Origin: Anaerolineales bacterium
Lineage (GTDB): Bacteria; Chloroflexota; Anaerolineae; Anaerolineales; Villigracilaceae
DNA: 41,288 nucleotides
Direction of reading: 5' to 3'
Assembly: GCA_014379595.1 (NCBI GenBank)
Contig: JACMLM010000060.1
Location: 1 to 41,288 of the forward strand
Every line of letters starts with the position of its first letter. Position 1 is the first letter of the stretch. The position numbers and the translations under genes are program-made. The notes beneath the pieces are model-generated. The model ran no database searches and was not told where the DNA came from. It saw only the letters and a program-made list of their open reading frames with translations. Shown piece after piece: positions 13,191-38,206 of the stretch.

Positions 13191-13264
13191 CGGGGTGTGG
13201 CTCAGACCGGTAGAGTGCGCGGTTCGGGTCCGCGAGGTCGGAGGTTCAAATCCTCTCACCCCGA
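13191..13264 (+). tRNA. tRNA-Pro (anticodon CGG)
   Basis: A full cloverleaf can be drawn by eye: acceptor CGGGGTG/CACCCCG, D stem GCTC/GAGT, anticodon stem CGCGG/CCGCG with loop TTCGGGT (anticodon CGG at 13225-13227, G37 as in tRNA-Pro) and T stem GGAGG/CCTCT with loop TTCAAAT. The discriminator is A at 13264. The 3' CCA is not encoded, so it must be added enzymatically. It reads codon CCG. Confidence 0.93.
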
Positions 13265-13295
13265 CAGGTTAGATCGCCTTACCCGAAGGCGGCAA

Positions 13296-13439: not shown

Positions 13440-14741
13440 CTAATCCAAGAAAGGCTGATAATAAACAGGCACAACTCCAAATAACCATAATCCGATGTTA
13501 CAAGCCAACATGAAAATAACTATGATCAACGGCAGACGATCCTGTAATCGTTGCGGTAATGTATCGTGCCAACCGCTGACCATAAGAATGGATAGCGCGC
13601 CAATAGCTGGGAATAGGAAACGTCCTTGTGTAGCACCTGTGGTGAGTCCATTTCGTGCTACGGCTGCAATAGTGGCTAATGCAATGAGCCATGTCGCTAT
13701 CCATGTGTGGAATTGTGGATCTTGAGATTTTGTTCTTATCAGGTGGAGCGCATTCATAATTATGCCGATCAATCCAAATGAAGTTAATAAGATAATCACG
13801 AATGCTGGCAAAGACACTGCTATCCAGCCAACTTTCCCCCAATATGTCGAAATAATTTGGTCGGTGATGAGGCGCAAGTAATCAGATGTGATTCCGCTTT
13901 TGCGCAGGCTGAATAAACGCCATGTCACTTCGCCAAGAGCAGTTTTGATCGTTTCTGGAAATATAAAATAAATGATCCCTACAAAAAATAAAACTGCCAG
14001 GCCTGAATACACTAGCCATCTTTTTTGGGGCATGCGATAGAACCATGTCCATCCGATAATCATAAATAATGCCGCACTGACGGGAAGCACTGTCAGTTTG
14101 GTGGTCAATGGAAGAATGATAGCTAATGGAATTAAAATAAAAGACAGTAAGTTTGAGCGTGTGGATATCATTCGGACTGTCAGATAAAAAAGCAAAGCGC
14201 CTGCGAGTGTTCCTAAAGCATCATTACTCACTGATGACATGATGTGCAGATATTGTGGTATTAATGCGGCGAGTGTCAGTGAAGCAATACGCAGGGTGGG
14301 TTTTTGAGGCGCAATTAACTGAAATGCTTTCCAATTCAATAAAAGCGCGCCCGCACCAAACAAGATATTCATCCAGCGCAACGCATACACCCCCAGCAGA
14401 AAACGGTAGTTATCGGAAGTCCAATCAAATCTACGAATAGGGGTGCGAATATTGTCCTTGTATTCATGCGGCATGACATAATCTGAAAGATGCGTGTCAA
14501 TTTTATCCAGCCCTCGAACTACCCATGAGCCAAGATAATAAAATGCTTTTGGCTGATTCATTTCATAATTATGTTCCAAAGTGGGAAAGCGATCCTTGCG
14601 TGCAAGATACCAAACGATGTGATAATGTGCAGGTTCGTCGGGCGCTTCCCAAATTGGCATGAGCAGGCTGTAACCGACTGCCAGAAAAAAATACAACGAA
14701 AAAATTAACGCAAGCCAGCGGCGTTCGGTCAGCGCATCCAT
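13440..14741 (-). CDS. DUF2142-family polytopic membrane protein, GT-C-like glycosyltransferase candidate
   Basis: A 433-residue protein with about ten transmembrane segments. After the first helix comes 'PIWEAPDEPAHYHIVWYL', with the PDEPAH acidic/His loop typical of DUF2142 and related GT-C proteins. 'SSVSNDALG' lies near residue 170, another family feature. Such proteins are thought to transfer sugars from lipid-linked donors on the outer face of the membrane; the acidic loop would hold the catalytic site. It is the last gene of a four-gene leftward cassette and overlaps the kinase-like gene by 13 bases. The activity is inferred from fold and context. Confidence 0.75.
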   Translation of the reverse strand: MDALTERRWLALIFSLYFFLAVGYSLLMPIWEAPDEPAHYHIVWYLARKDRFPTLEHNYEMNQPKAFYYLGSWVVRGLDKIDTHLSDYVMPHEYKDNIRTPIRRFDWTSDNYRFLLGVYALRWMNILFGAGALLLNWKAFQLIAPQKPTLRIASLTLAALIPQYLHIMSSVSNDALGTLAGALLFYLTVRMISTRSNLLSFILIPLAIILPLTTKLTVLPVSAALFMIIGWTWFYRMPQKRWLVYSGLAVLFFVGIIYFIFPETIKTALGEVTWRLFSLRKSGITSDYLRLITDQIISTYWGKVGWIAVSLPAFVIILLTSFGLIGIIMNALHLIRTKSQDPQFHTWIATWLIALATIAAVARNGLTTGATQGRFLFPAIGALSILMVSGWHDTLPQRLQDRLPLIIVIFMLACNIGLWLFGVVPVYYQPFLD

Positions 14742-15772
14742 AGTTGGTTTACCGTCTTAATGATTTCATCTTCTGATGTGCCAATGCGCAGGCGATGCAA
14801 GTTTGCATGTCCCAGTAGCAAAGCAATCTTGCGCAGGTTTTCACTCCATAGTTCGGGCGTGTCATAAAGCAAGCTGTTGACCATGATCTCGGGCCAAAGT
14901 TCTTCTTCGGTCAGCGACTCGATGCTGCTTTCAGATTTATCCCAGCGTTCAAGCAAACAGTATTCGACTCGATTAATTTGAATCATCTCTTGATACGTTA
15001 ACTCATTATCCACGCGGTTCAATTCGACCCGATGTTTGGTCTCGTCTCGAACGGGTTCATCCACTGCATGAGCTGCTAATGCTGGAAAAAGTGGAAGCAT
15101 GTCCGAGCGCAGTTTGATGCGCCCGACGGGAAATCCGCCCATCCATAATTTATTATCATGTTCACCAATGTAAACCATGCTATCTGATAACAACTTGTAT
15201 CCATTTAACAATAATCGTAATGCAGTCGTGGATTTTCCCGTTCCATGCGGCGCTTGCAAAAGCAGGATGTGATTATCTTTCACTAATGCGCTGGCGTGCA
15301 ACATGCTATATCCGTGACGCGTAACGAAGTTGGTTAGGATCGTATTTAAGATAACCAGACAAATTTGTTCGGGCTGGTCTGCCAGTGATGAAGATACAAC
15401 TACATGTGCTTCACCGTGTTTCATGTCTGCAAAACAATTGCCCCATTCTCGCAAGTCCATGGAAAGCCAGTCGCCTGCGCCTGCGTAGTGGACGAGGTCA
15501 ACGAGTCGCTTGGGTGGAGGAGCAGGGATCGGATTAGGATCGTGAACCGTGATATGCACTCGCCAGGTCGATTCATTTTGGAAGTCTGCTGTTGAATACA
15601 TCTGTTCTGCCATTGTCGCAGAGTCCAGCACATGAGGATGATTGCTATCGAAGATAACAGGATGCCCAAAGATGCGGATTGTTCGTTCATATTTGGGCGC
15701 GTTGGCACGACGAGACCAAAAGTCTTCCATGTGAGGATTATATTTTTTGTAGAGTTCGTTGAAATCAGGCAT
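14729..15772 (-). CDS. HPr kinase/phosphorylase-like P-loop kinase (HprK-related)
   Basis: A 347-residue protein whose C-terminal half resembles HprK. It has 'MLHASAL' (H159), Walker A APHGTGKST (174-182), and 'LLSDSMVYI' with D197 where HprK has its catalytic/Mg-binding acid. A 'GFPVGRIKLRSDM' segment follows. The N-terminal ~150 residues are unlike the HprK N-domain. These HprK-like proteins occur in peptide-modification and polysaccharide clusters; in the paeninodin lasso pathway a homologue phosphorylates the precursor C-terminus. There is no PTS HPr nearby. The gene overlaps both neighbours (8 and 13 bases), so it belongs to the flippase/GT cassette. Substrate unknown: a peptide, protein or sugar is possible. 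Confidence 0.75.
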   Translation of the reverse strand: MPDFNELYKKYNPHMEDFWSRRANAPKYERTIRIFGHPVIFDSNHPHVLDSATMAEQMYSTADFQNESTWRVHITVHDPNPIPAPPPKRLVDLVHYAGAGDWLSMDLREWGNCFADMKHGEAHVVVSSSLADQPEQICLVILNTILTNFVTRHGYSMLHASALVKDNHILLLQAPHGTGKSTTALRLLLNGYKLLSDSMVYIGEHDNKLWMGGFPVGRIKLRSDMLPLFPALAAHAVDEPVRDETKHRVELNRVDNELTYQEMIQINRVEYCLLERWDKSESSIESLTEEELWPEIMVNSLLYDTPELWSENLRKIALLLGHANLHRLRIGTSEDEIIKTVNQLWMR

Positions 15773-17030
15773 AAGTTTTTGTCAATGCGGGGCGGGTTTT
15801 GAAAAGATAGAGGAATAATCCACTGAGGGTTAATAGCCAGCCTGTAACTCCAAAGGCGAGAACGGCGTTGGGCATGGAAGCTGGGAACAAATATAAGAGA
15901 AGCCATTCGAGTGCAACGGCGCATCCTAATAGAATAACAAAATCACGCGGCTTGTGAGCGAGATAAAAATTCATCCAGAGCGAACTCAATGAGACTCCTA
16001 TCATCGCAAATCCCATCCAACCGAGAAGGGGCGACGCGGCGCGATAGGCCTCGCCAAATATTAACTGGACAAGCTGTTTGCTAAAAATAAAATATAAAAG
16101 AGTTAATGCTCCATCAGCTGCGAGGATAATAGCAGAGGTGCGAATTAACAAACCATCAGGCAGATTTTTTTCTGCAAGAATTTTGGCGATGTGCGGAAAC
16201 ATGACAACGACAGCTACCCCTGGCAGAAGTGCAACAATGCGTCTTAGTAAGATAAGACTTGCGTATGCGCCTGCCAATTCACCTGTCAAATACCGATTGA
16301 CCCAAATCAGGTCAAGGCTGGTGAGGGACATAAATGCGAAGTAGGCGAGCAATGCATAAAGCGAGAGCTTCCATCCTTCCTGTAAAAAATTAGATGAAGG
16401 TCCTTCGCCTTTTTTCCAAACTGATTTTCCGAGAAATATGAATCCGCTTAATACACTTACCAGCCAGCCAAATGGTAATGCGATGATCGCACCTGTTAAC
16501 CCGAAACCTGCTTGAACAAGAATCAAAGCGAGGACGATGCGCCCGAGTGCGAGTGCGAAGCGTGTGAAGCCAAACGAGATGAAATTCTCTTGTCCTTGTA
16601 ACACACCTGCTGCAATAGGTCGCAGAGTGCTTAAAAAAATTAGAGTCGCACTAACTTGAATTGTCCAAATTGGCAGATTCAATAATTGCGCGATCACATT
16701 TGATAGCAGGAGAACAAGGATTGCCAGAGCAAGCCCAAGCCAGAATGCAGCACGCAGAAAGGATTGGAAAATGGCTGCTACTTTTCCTTCATCTCCCTTG
16801 CCGCGTGCTTCGGCCACAAAACGACTGACCACAGGCTGAAACACTCCGCTGGCCGTGACATAAACCAACGCAACTGAATTTAGTGTTTGCAACACAGCGA
16901 AATCAGCGGGAATCAAGACGCGTCCCATCCAAAAATGGAAGGCGAAATCAATTACATTGGCAAGGCTATCAAAAATAAATAGCGATGCAGTTTGAAAGTT
17001 TACATTGGATTGCAGTTGTGATAAACGCAT
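15765..17030 (-). CDS. Wzx-like polysaccharide/oligosaccharide flippase
   Basis: A 421-residue protein with about twelve hydrophobic segments in the MOP-superfamily pattern. The N-terminus 'FIFDSLANVIDFAFHFWMGRVL..ADFAVLQTLNSV' resembles the opening helices of Wzx/PST transporters. It would flip lipid-linked saccharides across the membrane. It lies between the nucleotidyltransferase gene (35 bases upstream) and the HprK-like gene (8-base overlap). A role in exporting a surface glycan or glycoconjugate is likely; the exact substrate is unknown. Confidence 0.82.
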   Translation of the reverse strand: MRLSQLQSNVNFQTASLFIFDSLANVIDFAFHFWMGRVLIPADFAVLQTLNSVALVYVTASGVFQPVVSRFVAEARGKGDEGKVAAIFQSFLRAAFWLGLALAILVLLLSNVIAQLLNLPIWTIQVSATLIFLSTLRPIAAGVLQGQENFISFGFTRFALALGRIVLALILVQAGFGLTGAIIALPFGWLVSVLSGFIFLGKSVWKKGEGPSSNFLQEGWKLSLYALLAYFAFMSLTSLDLIWVNRYLTGELAGAYASLILLRRIVALLPGVAVVVMFPHIAKILAEKNLPDGLLIRTSAIILAADGALTLLYFIFSKQLVQLIFGEAYRAASPLLGWMGFAMIGVSLSSLWMNFYLAHKPRDFVILLGCAVALEWLLLYLFPASMPNAVLAFGVTGWLLTLSGLFLYLFKTRPALTKTYA

Positions 17031-17046
17031 ATTGAATAGAACCGTT

Positions 17047-17065
17047 GTCGGGCTGCAAGCCCGAC
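17047..17065. repeat. Short perfect palindrome GTCGGGCT-GCA-AGCCCGAC
   Basis: An 8-bp perfect stem with a 3-base loop directly abuts the nucleotidyltransferase stop codon. The motif is like the common 'GTCGGGCTTGCAGCCCGAC' dispersed palindrome. It has no T tract, so it is a weak terminator at most. Confidence 0.6.
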
Positions 17066-18355
17066 CTACAGATTAGTATCCAGTTTGTTAAATAAAGATG
17101 CACTTTTGCCGAGCCGTTTGAGTCGGAAATATCTTTCCATGCCGAAGTAAATTGTGTCCCAGCCGAAGCGCAGAGTTTCTCTTAAGGCGATAATTAAATG
17201 ACCGACTCTACATACGATATTTGATTGTCCATACTTGCGTTGTAAAAAATCTGCGGGCGGGAAGAAGTATGAGGCTGTTTCAAGCAAGCGGATGGGGCGC
17301 AGGATAAATGCTCCATTGGAGGCTAGAAGCAATTGCCAGAAACGACTCGCAGGACGATTTTCGTATGTGGCTAGTTCCTGTTCGGCGGCGCGTGCCATTA
17401 GTTTTTTGGTAACGGCCCAGATGGTAGAGATAGGAAGCGCAGAAATGACTTCGTCAGGAATAGAAGCACCGAAGTGTTTTTTGCAAGTTTGCAATACCGA
17501 ACTAAGAATATCCACTGCACCCCAATCACGGGCAAGTTGAATTGTTAGCTCCCAATCAACATCTTTATTTTTCTTTATTACTTCGGTGACATCGAGATAA
17601 TACATCAACATGCCATCCGCTAGAATGATGCGTTGTAAATCATCACGATCAACGAGACTTGGCAAATAGACTGCGTGCTTGACCAGGTGAATTGCAAGGC
17701 TTAGCAATAGGTCTGGAATAGCCATCTCTTGAATCGGCGCATCAAGCAGTTGCTCAGATGTAGCACGATTGAAAATACTTTCATAATCCACGGTGAGCAA
17801 GGTGTATGGATGATCAAATGCCCAATGAATCTCGAACCACACGCTGAGGTCTGGAGAACTGCGTTGTTGATGAAGATGATGGCGGGTGAAATATTCATCT
17901 TTCAATAAATTGGGCCAATACTCGCCGATACCTTGTTCTTTCAACACTGCCATCGAGGCATCCACTTGATCATGCGGCACAACAATATCAATGTCACCGC
18001 CGGGCCGCATGGCAGGGTGGTTATAGATCTTCTCGCACAGCCAAAGACCTTTGAGAACAATGTTTTTTATTCCGCGAGATTCAGATGACTGGAGATAAGA
18101 GACTAGCGATTCGTTGAATTTGGATGCGGCACGCTGGTATTTCTCAACTTGTTCGTCGATTATTTTTTGAGCATTTTCAGGAACCGTAATATTTGCTCGT
18201 TCAAAGATTTGCGTGGCAAGTACGGCCATGCGATTATGGGTGAGAATATTTGCGAAGCGTAGCCAATCGATATTATTTAAATTGGGACGATAGTTTTCGT
18301 CGCGCCAGTGATTGGCAAATTCGTAAGCTAGTTTTTCTTCTGGAGTTAATTGCAT
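17066..18355 (-). CDS. NTP_transf_5-family (uncharacterised) nucleotidyltransferase
   Basis: A 429-residue protein with the family hallmark: GIKNIVLKG (95-103) followed by 'YNHPAMRPGGDIDIVV' (111-126). D121 and D123 are the pol-beta-like metal ligands. Helical regions surround this minimal nucleotidyltransferase core. The rest has no recognisable domain. Members occur next to lasso-peptide genes, HprK-like kinases and exopolysaccharide genes, and their targets are mostly unknown. Here it is the first gene of the flippase/kinase/DUF2142 cassette. The family call is good; the function is open. Confidence 0.8.
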   Translation of the reverse strand: MQLTPEEKLAYEFANHWRDENYRPNLNNIDWLRFANILTHNRMAVLATQIFERANITVPENAQKIIDEQVEKYQRAASKFNESLVSYLQSSESRGIKNIVLKGLWLCEKIYNHPAMRPGGDIDIVVPHDQVDASMAVLKEQGIGEYWPNLLKDEYFTRHHLHQQRSSPDLSVWFEIHWAFDHPYTLLTVDYESIFNRATSEQLLDAPIQEMAIPDLLLSLAIHLVKHAVYLPSLVDRDDLQRIILADGMLMYYLDVTEVIKKNKDVDWELTIQLARDWGAVDILSSVLQTCKKHFGASIPDEVISALPISTIWAVTKKLMARAAEQELATYENRPASRFWQLLLASNGAFILRPIRLLETASYFFPPADFLQRKYGQSNIVCRVGHLIIALRETLRFGWDTIYFGMERYFRLKRLGKSASLFNKLDTNL

Positions 18356-18435: not shown

Positions 18436-19320
18436 TTACGCAGACTTCGCGATTCTTTGTTCGAGGCTGTAGCCAATTAATCCGAGGCTCAGTACGCTGA
18501 GTGTGATCATCAATCCTGTGGGGAGCACCCACCACTTCCACGCGTCACTTAGAAATGCTCCGCTGGCGCGTGCGAAATAAAGCATGGTTCCCCAGCTTTT
18601 ACCTGATGGGTCGCCGAGACCTAAAAAGCTCAAGCTTGATTCTGCAAGAATGGAAGCTGATGCAACCAAAACGATTTGTACCAATGCCAGTGATTTCACA
18701 CCAGACCATAAATGATTTGTCATAATCTGAAACGAGTTTGCGCCCAAGGCGCGTGCGGCTTCGATGTATGTCTCTGTGCGCATGGTCAAGACACGCGAGC
18801 GGACGAGGCGGGCAGGCGCGGCCCAGAAGAAGATGGCAAGTACAACGATTATGTTTCGTTGACTTGGACCGAGATATACACTGATCAAAATAACTAAGGG
18901 AAGAAAAGGGAGGACCAGTATCAAATCCGTGAGACGCATTAAGAGCGAGTCCACCCAGCCGCCTAAATATCCGCTGGCGAGACCGACGATGGTACCAATA
19001 ACAACAGAGATGAATGAGACGATCAACCCTGTAAATAATGAGGCGCGTGTGCCTGCGATGAGTTCACTGAATAAATCCTGGCCAATATCATTTGTCCCCA
19101 ACAGAAAACCTGCGCTTGGTTTTTGAAGTGGGAGCCCGACTCGTTCGGTGGCGTCATATGGGGCGATAATGTTTGGAAAAAATGCGAGGATGAGGAGTAG
19201 AGTCAAGATGAAGCCACCGACCCAGCCTGTGATGCGAATCAGACGTCGGCTCGAAATGACTGGGTTGGGTATAGTCGAAGCGCTAAGGGGACTTGAGTCC
19301 ACTGGATTCAGCGTGGTCAT
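18436..19320 (-). CDS. Dipeptide/oligopeptide-type ABC permease, DppC-like
   Basis: A 294-residue permease: N-terminal helix, the DppC/OppC segment 'GTNDIGQDLFSELIAGTRASL', then five helices with the EAA loop 'TYIEAARALGANSFQIMTNHLW'. It pairs with the DppB-like permease, whose stop overlaps its start by 4 bases. The downstream DppD/DppF ATPase genes expected in this family are absent, and the next gene is a nucleotidyltransferase of another cassette. Confidence 0.93.
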   Translation of the reverse strand: MTTLNPVDSSPLSASTIPNPVISSRRLIRITGWVGGFILTLLLILAFFPNIIAPYDATERVGLPLQKPSAGFLLGTNDIGQDLFSELIAGTRASLFTGLIVSFISVVIGTIVGLASGYLGGWVDSLLMRLTDLILVLPFLPLVILISVYLGPSQRNIIVVLAIFFWAAPARLVRSRVLTMRTETYIEAARALGANSFQIMTNHLWSGVKSLALVQIVLVASASILAESSLSFLGLGDPSGKSWGTMLYFARASGAFLSDAWKWWVLPTGLMITLSVLSLGLIGYSLEQRIAKSA

Positions 19321-20297
19321 GTAGTTGTCCTCTGCACACGCGGATCCAATAATGGATAGATCATTTCAGTGATGATGTTAAGAATTAAAATTGTGATAGT
19401 GAAGAGCAGAAAGCCGCCTTGCAATAATGGATAGTCACGCGACTTAACGGCTTCGAACATCATGTTGCCGATGCCGCGATAATTGAATACAGCTTCGATG
19501 ACAGTTACGCCACCGAGCAGTTGACCGAGGTCAAGCATGAATGCAGTCAGCACGGGAAGCAGTGCATTTCTTAATGCATGTCTGAGGACGACCCAAATTC
19601 CTTTTACGCCCTTGGCGCGGGCGGTGCGGATGAAATCTGATTCCATGATGCCGAACATGGCGGCGCGCATGATCACGAATGCAGTGGGTAGATATGCAAG
19701 TGTGAGAACAATAACTGGCATAAGTGCGTGACGAGTTACGTCCGTAATGTTATCCCAGCCTTTCAAACGTGGAATGGAATATGAATCACCTGCGGGCAGC
19801 CAGCCAAGTTCAATTGCAAATAATGGAATCAAAAGCATCGCCAGCCAAAATGGTGGAACTGCACGGAGAAAATAAATAATGCTTAACAAGCCGAGATCAG
19901 AAGATGAACCGCGTTTTGTAGCTGACCAAATTCCCAATGCTGACCCAATGACTAATGACAATGTGAGGCTGACACCAACGAGTAACAAAGTCCAGCGAAA
20001 ATTTTCACTTAAAACTTCGACGACAGATTTTCCGCCGCTGTAGCGATAGGATTGTCCGAGGTCCCCGCGCGCTAAATTGCCAAGATAAATTATGTATTGT
20101 TCACTTAGCGGTTTATCGAGTCCGTATTGCGCGCGCAAGGCATCAATTCGCGCCTGCCCTAATTGCGGCGCAGCGTTGCCCGCGATCAATTGCAATGGGT
20201 CACCAGGAACAAGGCGCGGCAGTAGAAAGTTAATCGAAATGGCGAGAAAAAATGTTATGGCAAATTCAATGGCGCGGCGGGCAAGGTTTTTTGTCAT
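19317..20297 (-). CDS. Dipeptide/oligopeptide-type ABC permease, DppB-like
   Basis: The 326-residue length is standard. Features are 'FLLPRLVPGDPLQLIAGN' after the first helix, 'LDKPLSEQYIIYLGNLARGDLGQSYRYSG' in the large external loop, and the EAA loop 'DFIRTARAKGVKGIWVVLRHALRNALLPVLT'. With DppC-like and the family-5 binding protein it forms an importer for peptides, but related systems carry oligosaccharides or nickel. Only a weak ribosome site precedes the ATG. Confidence 0.94.
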   Translation of the reverse strand: MTKNLARRAIEFAITFFLAISINFLLPRLVPGDPLQLIAGNAAPQLGQARIDALRAQYGLDKPLSEQYIIYLGNLARGDLGQSYRYSGGKSVVEVLSENFRWTLLLVGVSLTLSLVIGSALGIWSATKRGSSSDLGLLSIIYFLRAVPPFWLAMLLIPLFAIELGWLPAGDSYSIPRLKGWDNITDVTRHALMPVIVLTLAYLPTAFVIMRAAMFGIMESDFIRTARAKGVKGIWVVLRHALRNALLPVLTAFMLDLGQLLGGVTVIEAVFNYRGIGNMMFEAVKSRDYPLLQGGFLLFTITILILNIITEMIYPLLDPRVQRTTT

Positions 20298-20357: not shown

Positions 20358-21371
20358 TTATAGGTTGATCTCTTTGGCCAAGTCTTTCAAACGATTGTAC
20401 ACGATACCGAATTGAGAATCCCAATGCATACGAGGATAGGTTCCCTCAGGATGTGGATGAAGTGCCACGCGGCTCGCAGTACGGGTAAGCCAGAGTACCA
20501 TGACCAAGTCTGCGTGAAGCTGACGGTTTGTGCGCTCCGCGGGGGATGGGATGTGTTCTTCAATTTCAGCTCGGGAATGCCAATAGTGTGAGAGTAGTTC
20601 TGAGCGGGGAATGAGGCGCCCACTATCAAACGGTTGCAAGTCAATATAAGCAAGATCCATTTCGGGCATGCCAATACCAACATCCTGCCAGTCAATCAAC
20701 ACCGCGGGTTGCGGGCCCAAATCAAAAGGGAGTGGCGCGTTGGTGGGTGTTGTGTCATTGTGCAAAAGAGCTATGGTTGCGTTTTCATATTTTAAGCAAC
20801 TCTCACGCGCATACGAGATCAAATCTGATAATTGAGGAAGTGCATCCCAAATTCCCGCGCGTTGAACGATAGCAACCTGTTGGGGAATCGCGTCAAAATC
20901 CAATTGCGATTCGTGGCGTGGCTTTAACCATGATTCAGAAAATGAAATATTGGTTATGTGAAGAAGAGCATACGCACGCAGAACTGATCTTAATTCATCA
21001 CGTGTCCATTGATAAGGATGTTTTGGAATCCGATGTGTTAATGACAAATCTTCCATCACGATCATATGCCATCCACTGGCTCGATCAGTGGTAACAAGAT
21101 GGATGATAGGTTTGGGAATATTTATTTTGGGATATAAAATTTTATAAAAATTCGGTTCGCGTTCTGCTTCCAGCGGATCATTCAGACCTTTGGGATTGAT
21201 CGCTTTGACGATAACTGATTCGTGCGAAGAGTGACCCTGCGTTAGCAGGGTCACTCTATAAACTAAACTCCATGGAAGCGTGGTCTTGATCAGCTCTACA
21301 TGACATTCCTGCACATGTGAGCCAAGCGCCTGCTTGAGCAGATCAAGATCTGGTTGATAGGGTTGTTGCAC
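20358..21371 (-). CDS. Small-molecule phosphotransferase of the APH/choline kinase-like fold
   Basis: A 337-residue kinase-like protein. Features are the ATP-lysine strand 'VIVKAI' (K56), the hinge 'IVMEDLS' (104-110), the Brenner-type catalytic loop HNDTTPTN (204-211; catalytic D206, N211) and the metal motif IDWQD (D227). It matches the APH/EcKinase-type family that phosphorylates hydroxylated small molecules. It lies 8 bases after the binding-protein gene and before the permeases, so it may phosphorylate the imported ligand; that is inference. A perfect 13-bp inverted repeat is embedded in the reading frame near residues 39-48. Confidence 0.82.
   Translation of the reverse strand: MQQPYQPDLDLLKQALGSHVQECHVELIKTTLPWSLVYRVTLLTQGHSSHESVIVKAINPKGLNDPLEAEREPNFYKILYPKINIPKPIIHLVTTDRASGWHMIVMEDLSLTHRIPKHPYQWTRDELRSVLRAYALLHITNISFSESWLKPRHESQLDFDAIPQQVAIVQRAGIWDALPQLSDLISYARESCLKYENATIALLHNDTTPTNAPLPFDLGPQPAVLIDWQDVGIGMPEMDLAYIDLQPFDSGRLIPRSELLSHYWHSRAEIEEHIPSPAERTNRQLHADLVMVLWLTRTASRVALHPHPEGTYPRMHWDSQFGIVYNRLKDLAKEINL
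21228..21257. repeat. Perfect 13-bp inverted repeat inside the phosphotransferase gene
   Basis: Arms AGAGTGACCCTGC and GCAGGGTCACTCT flank the loop GTTA. The whole 30 bases are translated in frame (RVTLLTQGHS), so the palindrome adds or replaces ten codons without a frameshift. Confidence 0.8.
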
Positions 21372-21378
21372 GATGCGA

Positions 21379-23070
21379 TTACGGAATATCTTGTGCGCCT
21401 TCGGGCAGGAATGACCAGATGGTCACGATGCCAGTGCCTTTCAGATAAACCCAGCCATCATAAGCCGCAGGGCGATAAGCAAAGTTGCCGCCAGGTGACA
21501 TGAGAGGAATGAATGGAAGATTCTCTGTGAAGCGTTCCTGAACTTGTTGCCCAAAACCTTCAGTCTTGGATGGATCAGTATTCGAGGTAAGCTGCCCAAC
21601 AAGATCATCAAGTTCGGGATCGCAGATACCAGTGAGGTTGCCCCAGCCAACAGTACCGAATTCACAGTTTGTCAGGAATTTGATGAAGCCGCGTTGGAAT
21701 TGCGGGCCAGAAGACCAACCCCAAATGCCCATGTCGTAATCTGGTTCGGCTACAGCAACAAAGTTAGGCCAGATCAAAGCCACCGAAGAATCTATATCAA
21801 GGCAGTTCTGATGTGAGCCGAGACCTACATCATTGAGCCAGCCTGCAATTAATTCAGTTGCACGCACTTCAACAGGATTGTTTACATCACACAAAATACC
21901 AAAGTCTGTATTTGTGCCATTCAATTCACGAATGCCATCGCCATCGCCGTCCAGGAGTCCGGCAGCATCAAGTTCTGCGTTTGCTGCAGCGGGGTCAAAT
22001 ACATGCGGTATATTGAGCGACCAGGGCAGGTCGGGGTGGTACCAATTAATCGGCAGTTCCACGCCCTGTCCTAATAACACTACTTCAACAAGTGTTTTTG
22101 TATCGATCGCTTTGGATATTGCCTGTCTCACGGCAGGATCATCAAATGGTTCGCGTGATCCATTTGTGTAGAAAATATAGTTGAAAAAATCAGAACCTTT
22201 TGCAATTTCTATATCTTCATTACTTTCAAGCTCTGCTACAAATGCCGGCGGCACAGAGGAAAGTACTGCAGCTGCTTCGCTGGTACGAAGTTGATTGAAC
22301 TGTTGTGTTCGATCCTTGACGATCTTGGCAATGATCTCCGGGACTACAGGTTCGCCGCGGAAGTAATCAGGATTCGATTGAAGCCTGTAATATTGGCCTG
22401 GTTCTACTTCAACGAGTTTATATGCGCCGGTACCGATCATGCCTTGGAATTGGCTCAACTCACCGCTTGTGGCTACTTGATCTTTCCAGATATGCTCAGG
22501 CAAAATGAAAGTACCTGCCAACCCTTCGTTAAGGAAGAACGGTTGAGGCTCTTTGAGGTTGATTGTGAGGCCGTAATCACCATTGGCTTCCATTGTGTCA
22601 ATTGCGCCGAGGTTGTTCGCACGCCCAGCTGCGATGAGGAAGTTATAACTAAAAATTACATCATTCACATCGAATGTTTCACCATCATGCCATTTGACAC
22701 CTTCACGCAGGGTGAGTGTCCATGTCAGGCCGTCTTCGCTTGGCGTAGCAGATGTGGCGAGAGATGGAATGGGTTCAAGCTCAGGTGAGCGAATGTAAAG
22801 TGAGTCATAGATCCAGCCGACCATCCAAAAACCGATAAAGGTATTAAAGTTGGCAGGTGTGATCGGGCCTTCATCGTTGTCAACTAAAACAACAAGAGGA
22901 CCTTCTTCAGGAGCTTCCGTTGGCGCTTCAGTGGGTGCTTCGGTTGCAACTGGAGATTCGGTCATTACAGGTGAATCTGTTGCGGTTGCTGTGGCTGGAG
23001 AGCCGCAGGCTGTCAAAACAATACTAAAACATAGTATGCTGACAATAAGGGTTTGTATCTTGTTTTTCAT
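21379..23070 (-). CDS. Family-5 extracellular solute-binding protein (DppA/OppA-like lipoprotein)
   Basis: A 563-residue lipoprotein (VLTAC lipobox, C22, then a 'TEAPTEAPTEAPEE' spacer) with typical SBP_bac_5 segments: 'LATSATPSEDGLTWTLTLREGVKWHDGETFDVNDVIFSY', 'GTGAYKLVEVEPGQYYRLQSNPDYFRGEP' and 'FDDPAVRQAISKAID'. It captures the ligand for the DppB/DppC-like permeases downstream. AAGGAG precedes the ATG. A 34-bp repeat lies 32 bases upstream of the start (23103-23136) and is shared with the prenyltransferase gene, pointing to co-regulation. Ligand unknown. Confidence 0.93.
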   Translation of the reverse strand: MKNKIQTLIVSILCFSIVLTACGSPATATATDSPVMTESPVATEAPTEAPTEAPEEGPLVVLVDNDEGPITPANFNTFIGFWMVGWIYDSLYIRSPELEPIPSLATSATPSEDGLTWTLTLREGVKWHDGETFDVNDVIFSYNFLIAAGRANNLGAIDTMEANGDYGLTINLKEPQPFFLNEGLAGTFILPEHIWKDQVATSGELSQFQGMIGTGAYKLVEVEPGQYYRLQSNPDYFRGEPVVPEIIAKIVKDRTQQFNQLRTSEAAAVLSSVPPAFVAELESNEDIEIAKGSDFFNYIFYTNGSREPFDDPAVRQAISKAIDTKTLVEVVLLGQGVELPINWYHPDLPWSLNIPHVFDPAAANAELDAAGLLDGDGDGIRELNGTNTDFGILCDVNNPVEVRATELIAGWLNDVGLGSHQNCLDIDSSVALIWPNFVAVAEPDYDMGIWGWSSGPQFQRGFIKFLTNCEFGTVGWGNLTGICDPELDDLVGQLTSNTDPSKTEGFGQQVQERFTENLPFIPLMSPGGNFAYRPAAYDGWVYLKGTGIVTIWSFLPEGAQDIP

Positions 23071-23171: not shown

Positions 23172-23816
23172 TTATCCTCCGAGGGTAATATCTTGTTTTG
23201 AATACCATTCGAGCGCTTTGGTGAGGTGTGTTGGTTTAAAATCGGGCCATAATTCATCTACGATAAAAATATCGGCGTAAATGGATTGCACAGGCAGGAA
23301 GCCGCTTAACCTGCTCCAGCCTCCCCAACGAATGATCAAATCGATTTTTGAAACATCGCGTGATTTCAGGTCGTTGATGATCCCTGTCTGTTTGGAAGTT
23401 GTCATTTTTAAATTATTCAGGTCCCATTCCCAACCGTAGTTCACCAAAAAATTGACCTTGATACCGCCTTTTCCAAAAGTCTTTCTTTCAGAAGTATACG
23501 GCAGCAACTCCTTGGGAAACATCTTTGAATCGGTGTTGCCCACCACCAATAAATCTGCGTCTTCCTTGGAAAGTATCTTTACACCTTGAATACAGGCATT
23601 GATGATGGCATTTCTTTGGATTATCGGCCTTCTGGCATTCTCCATTGTATAGCCATAATAGGTAACCTCTTCGATGCCGGCTTTTTGGATCAACTTAAAA
23701 AGCATATACCCTGGGTCTATGCCTTTGTCCCAGCCTTTTATTCTCGGTATGCCTTGAGTATCTGCCCATCTTCTATTCCCATCAGGGATAATACCAATAT
23801 GTTTGGGTAATCGCAT
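23172..23816 (-). CDS. Short cis-prenyltransferase (UppS family paralogue)
   Basis: A 214-residue protein, shorter than typical UppS (~240-260). It keeps IPDGNRRWA (9-17; catalytic D12), 'YGYTMENARRP', 'VNFLVNYGWEWDL' and RWGGWSRLSGF (163-173; diphosphate-binding R163, R169, S171) with 'LWPDF'. The family condenses isopentenyl diphosphate into cis-polyprenyl diphosphates, the source of the glycan carrier lipid. The shortened form suggests a different chain length or a paralogue beside a housekeeping uppS elsewhere. GAGGTG precedes the ATG. It is monocistronic, with site B upstream. It may supply lipid for the glycan cassette; that is inference. Confidence 0.85.
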   Translation of the reverse strand: MRLPKHIGIIPDGNRRWADTQGIPRIKGWDKGIDPGYMLFKLIQKAGIEEVTYYGYTMENARRPIIQRNAIINACIQGVKILSKEDADLLVVGNTDSKMFPKELLPYTSERKTFGKGGIKVNFLVNYGWEWDLNNLKMTTSKQTGIINDLKSRDVSKIDLIIRWGGWSRLSGFLPVQSIYADIFIVDELWPDFKPTHLTKALEWYSKQDITLGG

Positions 23817-23937: not shown

Positions 23938-24516
23938 ATGCAGTTTGTGGAGTATCTTTTGTCAATTAGTTTTTCTGATTCCGAGCTAGTCCAAAAAGTA
24001 GCGCACGGCGATGAGCGTGCGTTTCTTATGCTGTATGACCGCTTTGCCTCTCATGTTTATGGGATCACATTGCGTGTGTTAGGCGACTCGATGCTTGCAG
24101 AAGAAGCCACTCAGGATACCTTTCTAAAATTATGGGGTCGCGCGAGGCAATTCATACCAAGTCAGGGTGCATTAGTTTCATGGCTGCTGACCATTGCACA
24201 TCGTACCGCGCTTGACCGCTTGAAATTGGAAAACCGTCGCATACCTGCGTCAAATGCGTACGATCCAGAAGAAGTTTGGTCGATCATTCCCGATGAAAAC
24301 ACAACAAATACAGATGCCCGTTGGCGAAGCTTGTACTTTGCAGTGCAGTCCCTGCCTGTGGATCAACGCCAGGTGATTGACCTCGCTTACTATAAAGGGA
24401 TGAGTCAAAGTGAAATTGCAGAAGTTTTAGGCTGGCCGCTCGGCACGGTCAAGACCCGGCTGAGAGCTGCAATGCAATCTCTTCGCGGGCAATGGCTCGA
24501 TGAAATTGTTAAGTAA
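23938..24516 (+). CDS. ECF-family RNA polymerase sigma factor (SigK/RpoE-like)
   Basis: A 192-residue sigma-70 protein with region 2 ('FLMLYDRFASHVYGITLRVLGDSMLAEEATQDTFLKLWGRA', ~30-70) and region 4 ('LPVDQRQVIDLAYYKGMSQSEIAEVLGWPLGTVKTRLRAAMQSLR', ~138-183), without region 3, as in ECF sigmas. It pairs with the anti-sigma gene 55 bases downstream. The ATG at 23938 has no ribosome site; TTG at 23959, six bases after GGAG, is a plausible alternative start, and TACAAT at 23931-23936 could then be the -10. The targets are unknown. Confidence 0.9.
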   Translation: MQFVEYLLSISFSDSELVQKVAHGDERAFLMLYDRFASHVYGITLRVLGDSMLAEEATQDTFLKLWGRARQFIPSQGALVSWLLTIAHRTALDRLKLENRRIPASNAYDPEEVWSIIPDENTTNTDARWRSLYFAVQSLPVDQRQVIDLAYYKGMSQSEIAEVLGWPLGTVKTRLRAAMQSLRGQWLDEIVK

Positions 24517-24571
24517 ATCTAATGCTCTGTTTTATGGCGTACTTAAAGTAGAAACAAATATTAGGAAATAA

Positions 24572-25315
24572 ATGTCTCGAGAAAACTGCCTTCCTTATCA
24601 GGAAAATCTTATTGCATATAGCCTTGGCGCCTTGGATGCCGAGGAGATTGCTGCTCTTGAATCTCACCTAAAGACCTGCACTGATTGTCAGACGGAACTT
24701 TTGGATTACCAGCAAATAGCAGCAGGATTAGTACTTGCCGTTCCACGACGGCTGCCGCCTTCGAGTCTGCGCCAGAAATTAGCTGGACGTCTCCCTTCGG
24801 CTCAAAAGCGGACCTCAAGCCTATTCGCTCTTTCTTTCAAACAATTCGCCGCTGGAGCAGTTTTAGCAGTTCTGCTCGGTTTGAATATTTTTTCCGCTCT
24901 CCAAATACAAAATCTTAATAAACAACAAAAAGCTCTTGCTGAGCGATTATCTGCTGAACAAAAAACCATCGCAATATTATCTCAACCAGGGACGCAAATC
25001 CTGTCAGTTAACACTGACCTAACGGATACAAGAGGTTCCATACTATTTCATAAAGACATGGCTACAGCCGTACTTATTTTATGGAATTTGCCCGAACTGG
25101 AAGCCAGCCAAACTTATCAGATCTGGTTGATTGATTCAAACGGTGAAAAAATTAGTAGCGGGCTATTTCTCTCCTCTACTGAATCAGACTACACAACAGC
25201 CTCAGTTCAATCTGCTTTCCCAATCGGGCAATTTGCTGCGGTTGGCATAACGGTCGAACCCTCTGGTGGCAGTCAACAGCCTACCAGTTCACCTATTGTA
25301 GTAGTCGAATTGTAA
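24572..25315 (+). CDS. RskA/ZAS-type anti-sigma factor
   Basis: A 247-residue membrane protein. The N-terminal zinc-binding anti-sigma motif is SHLKTCTDC (H32, C36, C39). A transmembrane helix lies at ~88-109. An extracytoplasmic RskA-like C-terminal domain follows ('SILFHKDMATAVLILWNLPELEASQTYQIWLID'). It should hold the adjacent ECF sigma at the membrane until the outer domain is cleaved or senses a signal. It is followed 9 bases later by manA, which suggests that mannose-6-phosphate isomerase is transcribed with the sigma/anti-sigma pair. Confidence 0.9.
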   Translation: MSRENCLPYQENLIAYSLGALDAEEIAALESHLKTCTDCQTELLDYQQIAAGLVLAVPRRLPPSSLRQKLAGRLPSAQKRTSSLFALSFKQFAAGAVLAVLLGLNIFSALQIQNLNKQQKALAERLSAEQKTIAILSQPGTQILSVNTDLTDTRGSILFHKDMATAVLILWNLPELEASQTYQIWLIDSNGEKISSGLFLSSTESDYTTASVQSAFPIGQFAAVGITVEPSGGSQQPTSSPIVVVEL

Positions 25316-25324: not shown

Positions 25325-26269
25325 ATGGCTTTAAACTCCTTTCTTAAATTAATTCCCCAATATCGTGATTATGTCTGGGGGGGTGACCGCCTTCGCCCGG
25401 GACATAAACCCACAGCCGAAGCTTGGGTGGTTTGGGAGGAAGATCGAATCGAAAACGGTATATTGACTGGGAAAACTTTGCGTGAAGCTGCCATTGAATA
25501 TGGATCTGCTTTATTGGGAGAGAAAGCTTTTGCACGTACAGGATTACGGTTCCCAGTCTTGATCAAGTTATTAGATTGTGCACAGTGGCTGTCTTTGCAG
25601 GTGCATCCTAATGACGAGCAGGCTGTTCGTCTGGAAGGTCCTGGTCAATTTGGGAAGACAGAGGCCTGGCACGTATTGGCCTCTCAACCCGATTCAAAAT
25701 TGATCGCAGGCGTAAAACCTGACACAAGCTCGGAAGAATTAGATGATGCAATTCGTAACGGAAGGATCCTCCAACATGCCCAATATGCAAATGTCTCTCA
25801 GGGGGATACAGTTTTTATGCCCGCAGGCACACTCCATGCACTGGGGCCAGGCTTGTTGATTTATGAAGTTCAGCAAACATCAGACTGGACGTATCGGGTT
25901 TATGATTGGGGTCGTCCTGAAACTCAAACGCGTCGTTTGCATATTGATAAGTCGATCCAAGTCACCCGACCTGATTTTAGTACGCCGATAATTCCCCTGC
26001 CATCTGTTGGAGATGGCACATGTGATGTACTTGTCCAATGTGAATATTTTACGCTTGAGTTATTAGCTGCGTCTTCACATGTCATTGACCTCGATACGCG
26101 CGGTGAAACTTTTCAGGCTGTTACAGTCATAGATGGGAAAGCGCGTTTGCAAGCTGATGATGAAAGCATTGAGCTCGAAAAATTTCAGACAGCATTAATT
26201 CCAGCTAGTGCTGGTAATTATCAATTTCAACCTTTGGGGAATTGCTGCGCTTTAAAATCCAGTTTATGA
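25325..26269 (+). CDS. manA: Mannose-6-phosphate isomerase, class I (bacterial short form)
   Basis: A 314-residue cupin enzyme with the zinc ligands in place: LQVHPND (Q92, H94), KTEAWHVL (E113) and AGTLHALGPG (H171), plus the 'QQTSDWTYRVYDWGR' active-site strand. It interconverts fructose-6-phosphate and mannose-6-phosphate, feeding GDP-mannose for glycans or allowing mannose use. It is the last gene after the sigma/anti-sigma pair and precedes the amino-sugar genes. Confidence 0.93.
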   Translation: MALNSFLKLIPQYRDYVWGGDRLRPGHKPTAEAWVVWEEDRIENGILTGKTLREAAIEYGSALLGEKAFARTGLRFPVLIKLLDCAQWLSLQVHPNDEQAVRLEGPGQFGKTEAWHVLASQPDSKLIAGVKPDTSSEELDDAIRNGRILQHAQYANVSQGDTVFMPAGTLHALGPGLLIYEVQQTSDWTYRVYDWGRPETQTRRLHIDKSIQVTRPDFSTPIIPLPSVGDGTCDVLVQCEYFTLELLAASSHVIDLDTRGETFQAVTVIDGKARLQADDESIELEKFQTALIPASAGNYQFQPLGNCCALKSSL

Positions 26270-26313
26270 TTTAATACAAGATACTCTTAATTTAAAGGAG
26301 GATATTGGATTAT

Positions 26314-27207
26314 ATGAATCCCAATCCGCTTCTCAAAAAACTTGGTTTTTCAGATACCGACCGCCTCGTTATTATTCATACTGACGATATTGGCATGTGC
26401 CATGCTTCAGTACAGGCTTTTAAAGACCTATGGGAATTTGGGACGATTACATCGGGTGCAGTAATGGTTCCATGCTCGTGGTTTCCTGCCACTGCCGAAA
26501 TGTGCCGTGCGAATCCTGAAATGGATATGGGAGTCCACGCGACTTTGAATGCGGAATGGGAAAGCTATCGCTGGAGTCCGCTTTCGACACGGGATCAGGC
26601 TTCGGGTTTGATTGATGCGGATGGTTACTTCCATCAATGGCATGAGGCTGTCTATCAAAATGCAAAGCCTGAAGCAGTAGCTGTTGAAGTCAATGCACAA
26701 GTTGAACGTGCACTAGCTTCAGGGATTGATGTCACACATGTTGATTCGCATATGGGCACGATCATGAATCAGAAGTTTATTCAATCGTATCTTCAAGCAG
26801 CTTTGAGCCGTGTGCTCCCAAATATGTTGCCGCGCATTGGTGCAATGGGGCTTGAGATGATGGGAATTACTGCGGAAGAATCGCAAACGTACGTGCCAAT
26901 TATGGCTCAACTTGAATCACAAGGGATTCCAATGCTGGATGGATTGTTCTCCATGCCTCTTGAACATGGCGACGATCATATTGGGCTGGCGAAAAAGATG
27001 TTAAGTGAAGTTCCCGTTGGAATTACACATTTTATTTTGCACCCATCAATTGATACACCTGAGCTGCGTGCGATTTGTCCTGATTGGCGAGCGCGGGTTG
27101 CCAATTACAATGCGTTTATGAGTATCGAGCTTAAAGACTTTATTAAGAATTCTGATTTTAAATTGATCGGCTATCGCCAGATACGTAATGCAATGAGGAA
27201 TGGATGA
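26314..27207 (+). CDS. ChbG/YdjC-family carbohydrate deacetylase
   Basis: A 297-residue protein with 'VIIHTDDIGMCH' (TDD 23-25), 'MGVHATL' (H75) and 'THVDSHMGT' (H142, H146). These are the Asp/His metal sites of the YdjC/ChbG TIM-barrel-like deacetylases. ChbG removes one acetyl group from diacetylchitobiose-6-phosphate; related enzymes act on other N-acetyl sugars. AAAGGAGG ends 11 bases before the ATG at 26314. An in-frame TTG at 26305 is only 2 bases from it, so I prefer the ATG. The stop overlaps the kinase start (ATGA), tying deacetylation to sugar phosphorylation. Confidence 0.88.
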   Translation: MNPNPLLKKLGFSDTDRLVIIHTDDIGMCHASVQAFKDLWEFGTITSGAVMVPCSWFPATAEMCRANPEMDMGVHATLNAEWESYRWSPLSTRDQASGLIDADGYFHQWHEAVYQNAKPEAVAVEVNAQVERALASGIDVTHVDSHMGTIMNQKFIQSYLQAALSRVLPNMLPRIGAMGLEMMGITAEESQTYVPIMAQLESQGIPMLDGLFSMPLEHGDDHIGLAKKMLSEVPVGITHFILHPSIDTPELRAICPDWRARVANYNAFMSIELKDFIKNSDFKLIGYRQIRNAMRNG

Positions 27208-28175
27208 GATATTTTTTAGGAATTGATGTGGGTTCATCGAAAACTCACGCAGTGATTGCAGACGAAGCAGGTAGGTGTATTGGGTTTGGCAAGGCATCGG
27301 GTGGCAATCATCAAAGTGTTGGGTATGAAGGCCTGCAAAATGTTTTGAAAAAGTGTTTTGAGCAGGCAAAGGAAATGGCAGGTATTTCAATTGATCAAAT
27401 TGTCGGGGCAGGATTCGGTGTAGCGGGTTATGACTTTCCATCAGATCGTGAAGAACATTTAGAAGTAATTGCTGCACTTGGGTTATCTTGTCCACTGGAT
27501 GTAGTGAATGATGGTGTTAATGGATTGCTTGCGGGTGCTACTCATGGATTCGGAGTGAACGTAACAGCGGGGTCCTCCAATAATTGTCGAGGACGCAGCA
27601 AGGATGGAAAAGAAGGGCGGATCGTCGGGAATGGCATTATGTTCGGTGAATATGGGGGCGGATTGGAAATTACCATGCAGGCGCTTCAAATGGTGAATCA
27701 TGCATCGATCCGCCGCCGACCTCCAACCAAGCTTACAAAAATTCTTTTGGATGCTACAGGTGCAAAAGATGAAATGGATTTAATGGAAGGACTCTCAAAT
27801 GATCATTATCATCTTTTCCCATTTACTGCGGTTGAAGTGATACAAGCCGCACGTGACGGTGACGAGGCTGCAAGAGAAGTTGTCCAGTGCGCGGGTGAGG
27901 AATTAGGATGGCTGGCAGTTTCAGTTGCACGCCAAATTGGAATGGAAGATGAAACTGTAGAGATCATTCAATCGGGCAGTATATTTAATGGGGGCGATAT
28001 TATTTTGAATCCCATGCGTGATATTGTGCTGAAGCATTGCCCCAAGGCAAAGATCATCCGTCTTGATGGGCCTCCTGTCGTTGGGGCGGTTTTGCTTGGT
28101 ATGGAGCAAGTTAACTTTGATGGATACGCAGTTCATGAGCGCCTTATTCAAACTGCCAAAGAAATTGTTAATTGA
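27204..28175 (+). CDS. BadF/BadG-type sugar kinase, probable N-acetylglucosamine kinase
   Basis: A 323-residue ASKHA-fold kinase. Features are the phosphate-1 motif 'LGIDVGSSKTHAVIAD' (5-20), 'VGAGFGVAGYDFPSD', 'VVNDGVNGLLAG' (phosphate-2/catalytic acid region), 'NVTAGSSNNCRGR' and the adenosine-side 'SGSIFNGGD'. The group includes eukaryotic-type GlcNAc kinases and bacterial glucosamine/GlcNAc kinases (MurK type) besides CoA-reductase activators. Context with a deacetylase and a SIS isomerase favours an amino-sugar kinase. It overlaps the deacetylase gene by 4 bases and ends at a strong terminator. Confidence 0.85.
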   Translation: MRYFLGIDVGSSKTHAVIADEAGRCIGFGKASGGNHQSVGYEGLQNVLKKCFEQAKEMAGISIDQIVGAGFGVAGYDFPSDREEHLEVIAALGLSCPLDVVNDGVNGLLAGATHGFGVNVTAGSSNNCRGRSKDGKEGRIVGNGIMFGEYGGGLEITMQALQMVNHASIRRRPPTKLTKILLDATGAKDEMDLMEGLSNDHYHLFPFTAVEVIQAARDGDEAAREVVQCAGEELGWLAVSVARQIGMEDETVEIIQSGSIFNGGDIILNPMRDIVLKHCPKAKIIRLDGPPVVGAVLLGMEQVNFDGYAVHERLIQTAKEIVN

Positions 28176-28216
28176 AAAGTAGTCAAGCAAAATTTATTTT
28201 GCTTGACTACTTTTTT
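28176..28216 (+). terminator. Rho-independent terminator after the kinase gene
   Basis: An extended stem (AAAGTAGTCAAGCAAAA / TTTTGCTTGACTACTTT) begins at the stop codon and is followed by T residues. It ends the deacetylase-kinase transcript and isolates the downstream regulator gene. Confidence 0.9.
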
Positions 28217-28348
28217 ATAGTGGGTATTGAGATTTATTTGTAAATTCAAATTTGCATATTCATTTCATTTTTTAATCTGTATGCGTGTTTTCGAGCCATC
28301 TTAGGTTTTTATATTCGCGCACGTAGTTTTGGGCCTTAAAACTCGCAC

Positions 28349-28376
28349 TTGCAATTCGCGCAAAAACGATTATACT
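28349..28376 (+). promoter_or_regulatory. Probable promoter of the DeoR-family regulator operon
   Basis: TTGCAA (28349-28354), a 16-base spacer and TATACT (28371-28376) form a good sigma-70-type promoter. Transcription would start near 28383, inside the heptamer array. The preceding ~130 bases after the terminator are A/T-rich, with a small inverted repeat ATTTG/CAAAT at 28236-28251 and nothing else I can name. Confidence 0.6.
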
Positions 28377-28377
28377 G

Positions 28378-28415
28378 ATGATTGTTTATGATTGATTTAT
28401 GATGGATTGTGATTG
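28378..28415 (+). promoter_or_regulatory. Four phased ATGATTG-like heptamers, candidate DeoR-type operator
   Basis: ATGATTG at 28378 and 28388, ATGATGG at 28399 and GTGATTG at 28409 are spaced 10, 11 and 10 bases apart, one per helical turn. They start right after the -10 box and end 6 bases before the regulator's ATG. Tandem direct repeats on one DNA face are known for some DeoR-family repressors (for example IolR). Binding here would block transcription initiation, giving autoregulation. Confidence 0.55.
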
Positions 28416-28421
28416 AAAATT

Positions 28422-29198: not shown

Positions 29199-29208
29199 AT
29201 GGAGAGCC

Positions 29209-30243: not shown

Positions 30244-30245
30244 AT

Positions 30246-31262: not shown

Positions 31263-31338
31263 GGAGGTGCAAACGTAACCGTCATTTGCTGTGTTTCTAA
31301 AATTTCTTTTGTCAGTTATTAAATCAAAGGAGAAGAAA

Positions 31339-32658: not shown

Positions 32659-32695
32659 TAGTGAGAAGTAATTTGTAAAAAGTAATCAGTGTAAA

Positions 32696-32746: not shown

Positions 32747-32792
32747 TCATCCTTCATCATTCTGCTTTCATCCTTTAAATAAAGGAACGCCA

Positions 32793-33785: not shown

Positions 33786-33786
33786 G

Positions 33787-34641: not shown

Positions 34642-34642
34642 T

Positions 34643-38179: not shown

Positions 38180-38206
38180 GGTCTTATTCAAGTCTAGAGG
38201 ACAATC

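Follow-up and report, generated by a model that had tools for sequence, protein, structure and literature searches.

A rare and conserved gene block, larger than four genes, lies on the minus strand of the 41,288-nucleotide stretch of DNA analysed here (hereafter the window), which is one whole contig of a 4.47-Mb Anaerolineales genome (G000). Its downstream part is a cassette encoding an NTP_transf_5 protein (NTF5; positions 17066–18355), a Wzx-like flippase (15765–17030), an HprK/PEPCK-like kinase (14729–15772) and a DUF2142-like membrane protein (13440–14741). A preliminary description had presented these as four leftward genes that overlap or nearly touch, and the open reading frames (ORFs) were indeed found in this arrangement, with overlaps of 13 bp (DUF2142-like and kinase genes) and 8 bp (kinase and flippase genes) and a 35-bp gap between the NTF5 and flippase genes. 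The cassette is real and conserved, but as a unit it had been drawn too small, since an Opp-type importer and an APH-family kinase encoded upstream on the same strand (SBP5, APH, OppB and OppC, with gaps of no more than 80 bp within the eight-gene block) had been missed. Somewhat short of even confidence, we propose that the locus is an import-modify-flip unit in which a phosphorylation and phosphate-glycosylation (or nucleotidylation) pair, of the type known from ribosomally synthesized and post-translationally modified peptides (RiPPs), has been redirected to a lipid-linked substrate that a flippase exports.

Five cassette loci are known, all from metagenome-assembled genomes (MAGs): the window, L028 (G210), L029 (G340), L011 (G041) and L056. 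The order NTF5–flippase–kinase–DUF2142-like is kept in the Anaerolineae MAG loci L028 and L029. Translated comparison revealed the full eight-gene order in L029, where SBP5 occupies the same position and is 83% identical to that of the window. L028 carries the four-gene cassette without the Opp/APH genes, its products being 68% (kinase), 66% (flippase), 63% (NTF5) and 50% (DUF2142-like) identical to those of the window. L056 runs from an OppB fragment at the contig start through OppC and NTF5 to the flippase, where the contig ends. L011 is rearranged such that the kinase and NTF5 genes are divergent; one end of the contig carries an N-terminal fragment of the orthologous flippase gene beside NTF5, and the other an OppC fragment separated from the kinase gene by about 3 kb. 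Contig ends hide the DUF2142-like gene in L056 and L011, and the kinase gene in L056. A further contig of G041, L037, carries SBP5–APH–OppB running off its end, so that it and the L011 contig are probably neighbours in the genome. The co-occurrence put forward in the preliminary description is therefore borne out by the order in L028, L029 and L056 (to the contig end) and by the linkage in L011, which together rule out random adjacency of the four genes. The block is under purifying selection: dN/dS was 0.055–0.146 for cassette comparisons with unsaturated synonymous sites and 0.045–0.157 for unsaturated pairs over all eight genes, values that are rough owing to the high dS (1.7–4.2).

The rarity of the unit is apparent from several searches. 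Among 400 genomes of the order, the kinase had ten matches at E≤1e-6, comprising four close ones (at least 44% identity; G000, G210, G340 and G041), two sister kinases (G065, 33%; G084, 30%) and four distant ones. No close match was detected in 36 genomes of the same genus, which yielded four weak matches (E 3.6e-4 to 1.4e-6), and in a phylum-wide sample of 400 genomes the matches were limited to G000, G210 and four distant kinases. Scanning 84,980 species genomes by means of the NTF5 alignment recovered four loci, namely those of G340, G210 and G041 and the new L056, and no relative came up when the species-genome collection was scanned with the kinase sequence alone; both scans use short peptide patterns, which relatives may escape. 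Among the 400 genomes of the order, three have the APH gene at a threshold of E≤1e-15 (G000, G340 and G041), and all three carry the cassette. G210 shows that the cassette can do without the importer, since it has neither the Opp/APH block nor any APH match in its genome.

The kinase (347 aa) matches HprK_rel_A (TIGR04352; 4.2e-12) with 45.7 bits, below the curated cut-off of 200 bits, which is reached in none of 201 genomes of the order. Structure models were made for this protein and for NTF5. The AlphaFold2 (AF2) model of the kinase, built from seven sequences, has a predicted local distance difference test score (pLDDT) of 88.3; residues 18–347 align with the ATP-dependent PEPCK 1xkv_A (Z 14.8, root-mean-square deviation (rmsd) 5.1 Å, 273 residues) and residues 155–347 with HprK 3tqf_A (Z 13.4, rmsd 2.5 Å, 134 residues). 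When a profile of these kinases was aligned with solved HprK, the alignment ran through the same site. With its predicted P-loop kinase fold, Walker A motif (15230–15253, minus strand, as are all positions given for this gene) and conserved histidine, the protein is assigned on the basis of its model to the HprK/PEPCK superfamily. The kinase reading of the preliminary description thus holds with respect to the predicted fold, but it overlooked the loss of a catalytic residue. In HprK, 18 residues separate Lys161 from Asp179; counting 18 from Lys180 of the window kinase leads to Ser198 (15179–15181), which is therefore the equivalent of Asp179. For the Enterococcus enzyme, the role of proton acceptor/donor is ascribed to Asp179, which is also counted, along with Ser157, among the residues that bind substrate (PMC9399212).

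An alignment of 26 kinases, consisting of four cassette kinases (window, L028, L029 and L011), two sister kinases (L030 and L031) and 20 others, showed Ser or Gly at position 198 in all six cassette and sister kinases, where the 20 others all have Asp or Glu. Position 176, which takes the place of HprK Ser157 in the P-loop (15245–15247), is His in the same six proteins and in none of the 20. His159 (15296–15298) and Lys180 are conserved in all 26, and the cassette kinases retain Walker A Lys180/Ser181 and Asp197 (15182–15184). The four distant kinases of the phylum sample have Asp-Asp at the site and no P-loop histidine. In a tree of this small set, which includes some long branches, the four cassette kinases group with support of 96/94 and the six cassette and sister kinases with 86/83, the latter below the starred level. 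The correlated exchange at positions 176 and 198 suggests that the catalytic base may have moved to the P-loop histidine. A more far-reaching version, which we consider rather unlikely as a whole, would be that this clade moved its base in this way and that, with neither a RiPP recognition element (RRE) nor a peptide involved, the kinase and NTF5 decorate a lipid-linked surface molecule through a phosphodiester bond, the flippase being its only exporter. A RiPP cluster would then have given rise to a new pathway of phospho-decoration. As side observations, the NTF5 and kinase genes of G041 contain in-frame inserts with the same 55-nt repeat (L011:792-846 and L011:2252-2306; 91% identical), and the kinase of G340 also contains an in-frame insert, a different one about 28 residues long. 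We take the inserts in the genes of both genomes to be similar to Rickettsia palindromic elements.

Among the family labels of the preliminary description, that of NTP_transf_5 proved firm, those of the kinase and the DUF2142-like protein fall below their cut-offs, and that of the flippase is supported by two orthologues. NTF5 (429 aa) matches PF14907 with 110.7 bits (1.1e-31; gathering cut-off 31.2 bits). Asp121 and Asp123 are part of the motif RPGGDIDI (17984–18007) and Glu175 is encoded at 17831–17833; together with Arg117 and His177 these residues are invariant in all nine aligned NTF5 sequences. The window protein is 48–73% identical to three other cassette NTF5 proteins and 16–19% identical to five non-cassette ones. 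A sequence search of solved structures gave no convincing match, and Foldseek with the model (pLDDT 81) none at E≤0.001, so that the fold assignment is based on structural alignment: core residues 78–294 resemble MenT1 best (8an5_A, Z 12.4), followed by ANT(2'')-Ia (4wqk, Z 10.3) and LnuA (Z 8.1), with a weaker similarity to FKRP, as an example of the LicD/FKRP-type phosphotransferases (6kal_B, Z 6.5, rmsd 3.8, 143 aligned), than to MenT1 and ANT(2'')-Ia. The flippase (421 aa, about 11 hydrophobic segments in a hydropathy scan) has no Pfam match at E≤1; orthologues 74% and 65% identical to it pass the PF01943 (Polysacc_synt) threshold of 28.2 bits with 47.5 and 28.9 bits, respectively. The DUF2142-like protein (433 aa, eight hydrophobic segments) scores 23.1 bits against PF09913 (3.7e-5; gathering cut-off 30.1), the L029 copy 21.1 bits, and the L028 protein has no PF09913 match at E≤1. 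Its motif W-E-x-P-D-E-P-A-H (14625–14651) is invariant at W31, E32, P34, D35, E36, P37, A38 and H39 in all three orthologues. DUF2142 proteins occur in streptococcal cell-wall polysaccharide loci that include Wzx-like flippases (PMC9746298, excerpted text).

The four upstream genes of the block encode, in transcriptional order, an SBP_bac_5 solute-binding protein (SBP5; 21379–23070, PF00496, 1.1e-68), an APH-family small-molecule kinase of 337 aa (20358–21371, PF01636, 3.5e-10) with the conserved motif HNDTTPTN at 20739–20762, an OppB-like permease (19317–20297, PF00528, 3.7e-41) and an OppC-like permease (18436–19320, PF00528) 80 bp upstream of NTF5, all on the minus strand. A divergent, short accessory cis-prenyltransferase gene (UppS-like; 23172–23816, minus strand, PF01255), 101 bp further upstream beyond SBP5, is a tentative additional member. 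G000 encodes three PF01255 proteins and six of seven other genomes searched one each; translated comparison detected no match to the UppS-like gene in L029.

The relatives of the kinase and NTF5 are mostly found in a RiPP-like setting. HprK_rel_A matches (E≤1e-4) occur in 42 of 201 genomes of the order, and for 22 of 47 HprK_rel_A-type matches one of 74 NTP_transf_5 matches is no more than 10 kb away, a count restricted to the latter at E≤1e-20. Six-frame translations were searched with PqqD- and Asn-synthase-type profiles derived from proteins of these relatives. Of 21 loci outside the cassette group that have a kinase and an NTP_transf_5 gene (L017, L018, L030–L035 and L038–L050; picked by their matches and not at random), 18 were found to contain PqqD and/or Asn-synthase genes, L035 and L050 being among those with PqqD, as opposed to none of the five cassette loci. 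The exceptions are L031 and L048, which are contigs of 5.7 and 3.1 kb, respectively, and L032 (18.9 kb). With an E-value of 1.6e-114, the Asn-synthase of L043 still stays below the cut-off of the lasso cyclase model that it matches. These contexts, together with published RiPP clusters (PMC8498205 and PMC13381572, both in excerpt), corroborate the view of the preliminary description that kinase and NTP_transf_5 are of types known from lasso-peptide tailoring.

The same description had noted that a precursor, an Asn-synthetase-like cyclase, an RRE and a leader peptidase are lacking beside the pair, and this was substantiated in the gaps and the scanned ORFs. No ATG-initiated ORF of at least 15 codons is present in the gaps of the eight-gene block, each extended by 30 bp in both directions; one ORF of 26 aa lies in the 101-bp gap that precedes SBP5, and the gaps in L028 and L056 measure about 15 bp or less. 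Asn-synthase, PqqD and PF13471 (B2 leader peptidase) were not found among the Pfam-scanned ORFs of the window, a scan that left out small and antisense ORFs, and an Asn-synthetase-like cyclase was detected neither in the window nor in the other cassette loci. At E≤0.001, PqqD (PF05402) is missing from G000, G210 and G340, genomes that are 88–95% complete and in which a divergent RRE may escape detection, and present in five of eight genomes searched, i.e., G041 (two, on other contigs), G121, G085, G151 and G144. PF13471 was found in none of the eight genomes, including those with PqqD-type loci, and hence does not discriminate. A nearby canonical lasso operon that might use the kinase was looked for and rejected, there being none among the Pfam-scanned ORFs of the window and no PqqD in G000; G000 has only one match to this kinase at E≤0.001. 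Contig C10 of G000 encodes one Asn-synthase-like protein, below the lasso-cyclase cut-off, among glycosyltransferases. Its locus, L063 (G000:C10:47500-67000), is rich in glycosyltransferase genes and also encodes a nucleotide-sugar epimerase/dehydratase and a fatty-acid desaturase.

Several known systems share part of this gene content, yet a literature search retrieved no description of the arrangement itself. The pneumococcal lic/tacF operon for teichoic-acid phosphocholine combines an importer, an APH-like kinase, an NTase-fold transferase and a MOP flippase. The cassette with its upstream genes follows the same logic by analogy only; it differs in the absence of a visible cytidylyltransferase, in the Opp type of the importer, in the additional HprK-like kinase and in an NTF5 model that is only weakly like FKRP. 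TacF is the flippase of the pneumococcal system (PMC13385700, abstract). In lasso-peptide clusters, including those of paeninodin and pseudomycoidin, a kinase phosphorylates the C-terminal serine, and in pseudomycoidin a nucleotidyltransferase adds one or two hexoses to that phosphate (review PMC8498205). The pseudomycoidin cluster resembles the cassette in its HprK-like kinase (gene K) and nucleotidyltransferase (gene N); the cassette, however, has no precursor, cyclase, leader peptidase, RRE or ABC exporter and encodes a flippase and a GT-C-like protein instead. Likewise, LPP RiPP clusters of Bacillota (lppA-K-B-S-D-N) combine an HprK-like kinase that phosphorylates peptide serine, an NTP transferase and an exporter, whereas the precursor, RRE, SpI peptidase and MsbA-like exporter they contain were not found beside the cassette; deletion of the LPP NTP-transferase gene caused no detectable change in the heterologous host used (PMC13381572, excerpt).

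In Anaerolineae HprK_rel_A/PqqD/NTP_transf_5 loci (e.g., in G121 and G151) the kinase also adjoins NTP_transf_5, but these loci include PqqD and their kinases have Glu at the Asp179 position. We take gene N of the pseudomycoidin cluster to be a further PF14907 member. The closest kinases outside the cassette, those of the sister loci L030 (G065; 33% identity) and L031 (G084; 29–30%), share the His176/Gly198 signature and have NTP_transf_5 in the same locus. Both loci (L030:10254-15600 and L031:119-5730) read Exo_endo_phos–kinase–DUF3048–ABC transporter part–NTP_transf_5 and lack the flippase/DUF2142 pair; L030, which is not a cassette, has PqqD and Asn-synthase genes within about 5 kb of its kinase. 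ABC transporters stand beside the pair in L035 and L050, a membrane part or ATPase in L030 and L031, and an ABC transporter also accompanies it in LPP clusters (PMC13381572). The cassette has the Wzx-like flippase and DUF2142-like protein in that place and, given the streptococcal loci in which the two families occur together, the simplest interpretation is that the substrate is lipid-linked. The kinase and NTF5 probably derive from a RiPP-tailoring pair that was stripped of RRE, cyclase, peptidase and precursor.

In the pathway we propose, the substrate, the order of reactions, the transport direction and the functions given to the importer and the APH protein are all hypothetical. SBP5 and OppBC would import a small peptide- or glycoside-like compound, with the ATPase being encoded elsewhere, and the APH-family kinase would phosphorylate it. 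At the inner face of the membrane the HprK/PEPCK-like kinase might phosphorylate a hydroxyl of a lipid-linked acceptor. NTF5 would then attach a sugar- or nucleotide-linked group to that phosphate, reminiscent of the hexoses on the phosphoserine of pseudomycoidin, after which the flippase would turn over the decorated product and the GT-C-like DUF2142 protein would complete or transfer it outside. A glycan or lipid substrate is suggested by the flippase and the GT-C-like protein, and the UppS-like cis-prenyltransferase would fit a lipid carrier.

A number of observations weigh against this model. One is the cassette of G210, which lacks the Opp/APH block. The DUF2142 assignment is sub-threshold, and the GT-C nature of the protein is presumed by us from clan membership and the motif. 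The glycan side finds no echo in the vicinity, where no glycan-synthesis operon adjoins the block and the sugar-related ORFs at 25325–34641 look catabolic. Phosphorylation cannot be assumed from homology alone since the kinase clade lost the equivalent of HprK Asp179. Nor is the cassette alone in lacking RiPP genes: in L032 kinase and NTP_transf_5 genes stand side by side without PqqD, Asn-synthase or a matching flippase. Moreover, a precursor peptide may be encoded elsewhere or overlap other genes. If so, the locus would belong to a RiPP pathway with an unlinked precursor, whose peptide is modified by the pair and whose lipidated or hydrophobic product is exported by the flippase. Such a role would agree with the known function of the pair in RiPP tailoring (PMC8498205, PMC13381572), with the PqqD and Asn-synthase genes about 5 kb or less from the sister kinase of L030, and with an SBP5/Opp importer that may carry peptides. 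We nevertheless consider it unlikely given that three cassette genomes lack detectable PqqD, that the block leaves no room for a precursor and that the flippase is of the Wzx type, unlike the ABC exporters of LPP clusters, L035 and L050.

The most serious competitor, which we regard as clearly possible though on balance doubtful, is that Opp/APH and cassette are two functionally unrelated neighbouring operons inherited or transferred together. G210, with its four cassette genes and no Opp/APH block, speaks for this, and with five loci known shared descent can account for the linkage; on the other hand, linkage survives the rearranged order in G041 (two contigs, probably adjacent) and the APH gene never occurs without the cassette in 400 genomes. 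Alternatively, the genes could serve uptake, inactivation and efflux of an antibiotic-like compound handled by the importer, the APH kinase, an aminoglycoside-NTase-like NTF5 and an exporter of the MOP superfamily. The similarity of the NTF5 model to ANT(2'')-Ia and LnuA, the APH family and the confinement of the Opp-type importer with its APH gene to cassette genomes are compatible with such a function, which we hold to be quite unlikely because flippase orthologues match Polysacc_synt, a GT-C-like protein and an importer would be odd for resistance, and the NTF5 family is tied to RiPP tailoring, with MenT1 and not ANT as best model match. We give equally little credence to the idea that the kinase-like protein has ceased to be a kinase and acts as an ATP-binding regulator or scaffold for NTF5. 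Ser or Gly at the position of the HprK proton acceptor/donor (PMC9399212) in all six cassette and sister kinases would be expected of such a protein, but retention of His159, Lys180/Ser181 and Asp197, purifying selection on the gene, and a P-loop His176 that could act as replacement base argue for an enzyme.

The surroundings of the block are as follows. A tRNA-Pro gene (13191–13265) lies past its downstream end. On the other side, genes for an ECF-type σ factor and then an RskA-type anti-σ factor (23938–25315) are divergent from the block and precede a sugar-related set (25325–40330) that codes for PMI-like, YdjC, BadF-type ATPase, DeoR regulator, amidohydrolase and SIS proteins, an SBP_bac_1 importer with two permeases, a DUF4832/DUF4874 protein, a GH114-associated protein and a TMEM260/PMT_2-like membrane protein (36463–38055). 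Base composition gave no indication of foreign origin, the G+C content of the cassette (0.448) falling inside the range of its flanks (0.446–0.464).

The NTP_transf_5 family is widespread, with a PF14907 match at E≤1e-5 in 75 of 201 genomes of the order, and is named 'uncharacterised' by Pfam. A kinase/NTP_transf_5 locus without RiPP machinery would help to define what the pair recognizes and would connect RiPP tailoring with the modification of surface glycolipids, while the residue swap in the kinase poses a directly testable question of enzymology.

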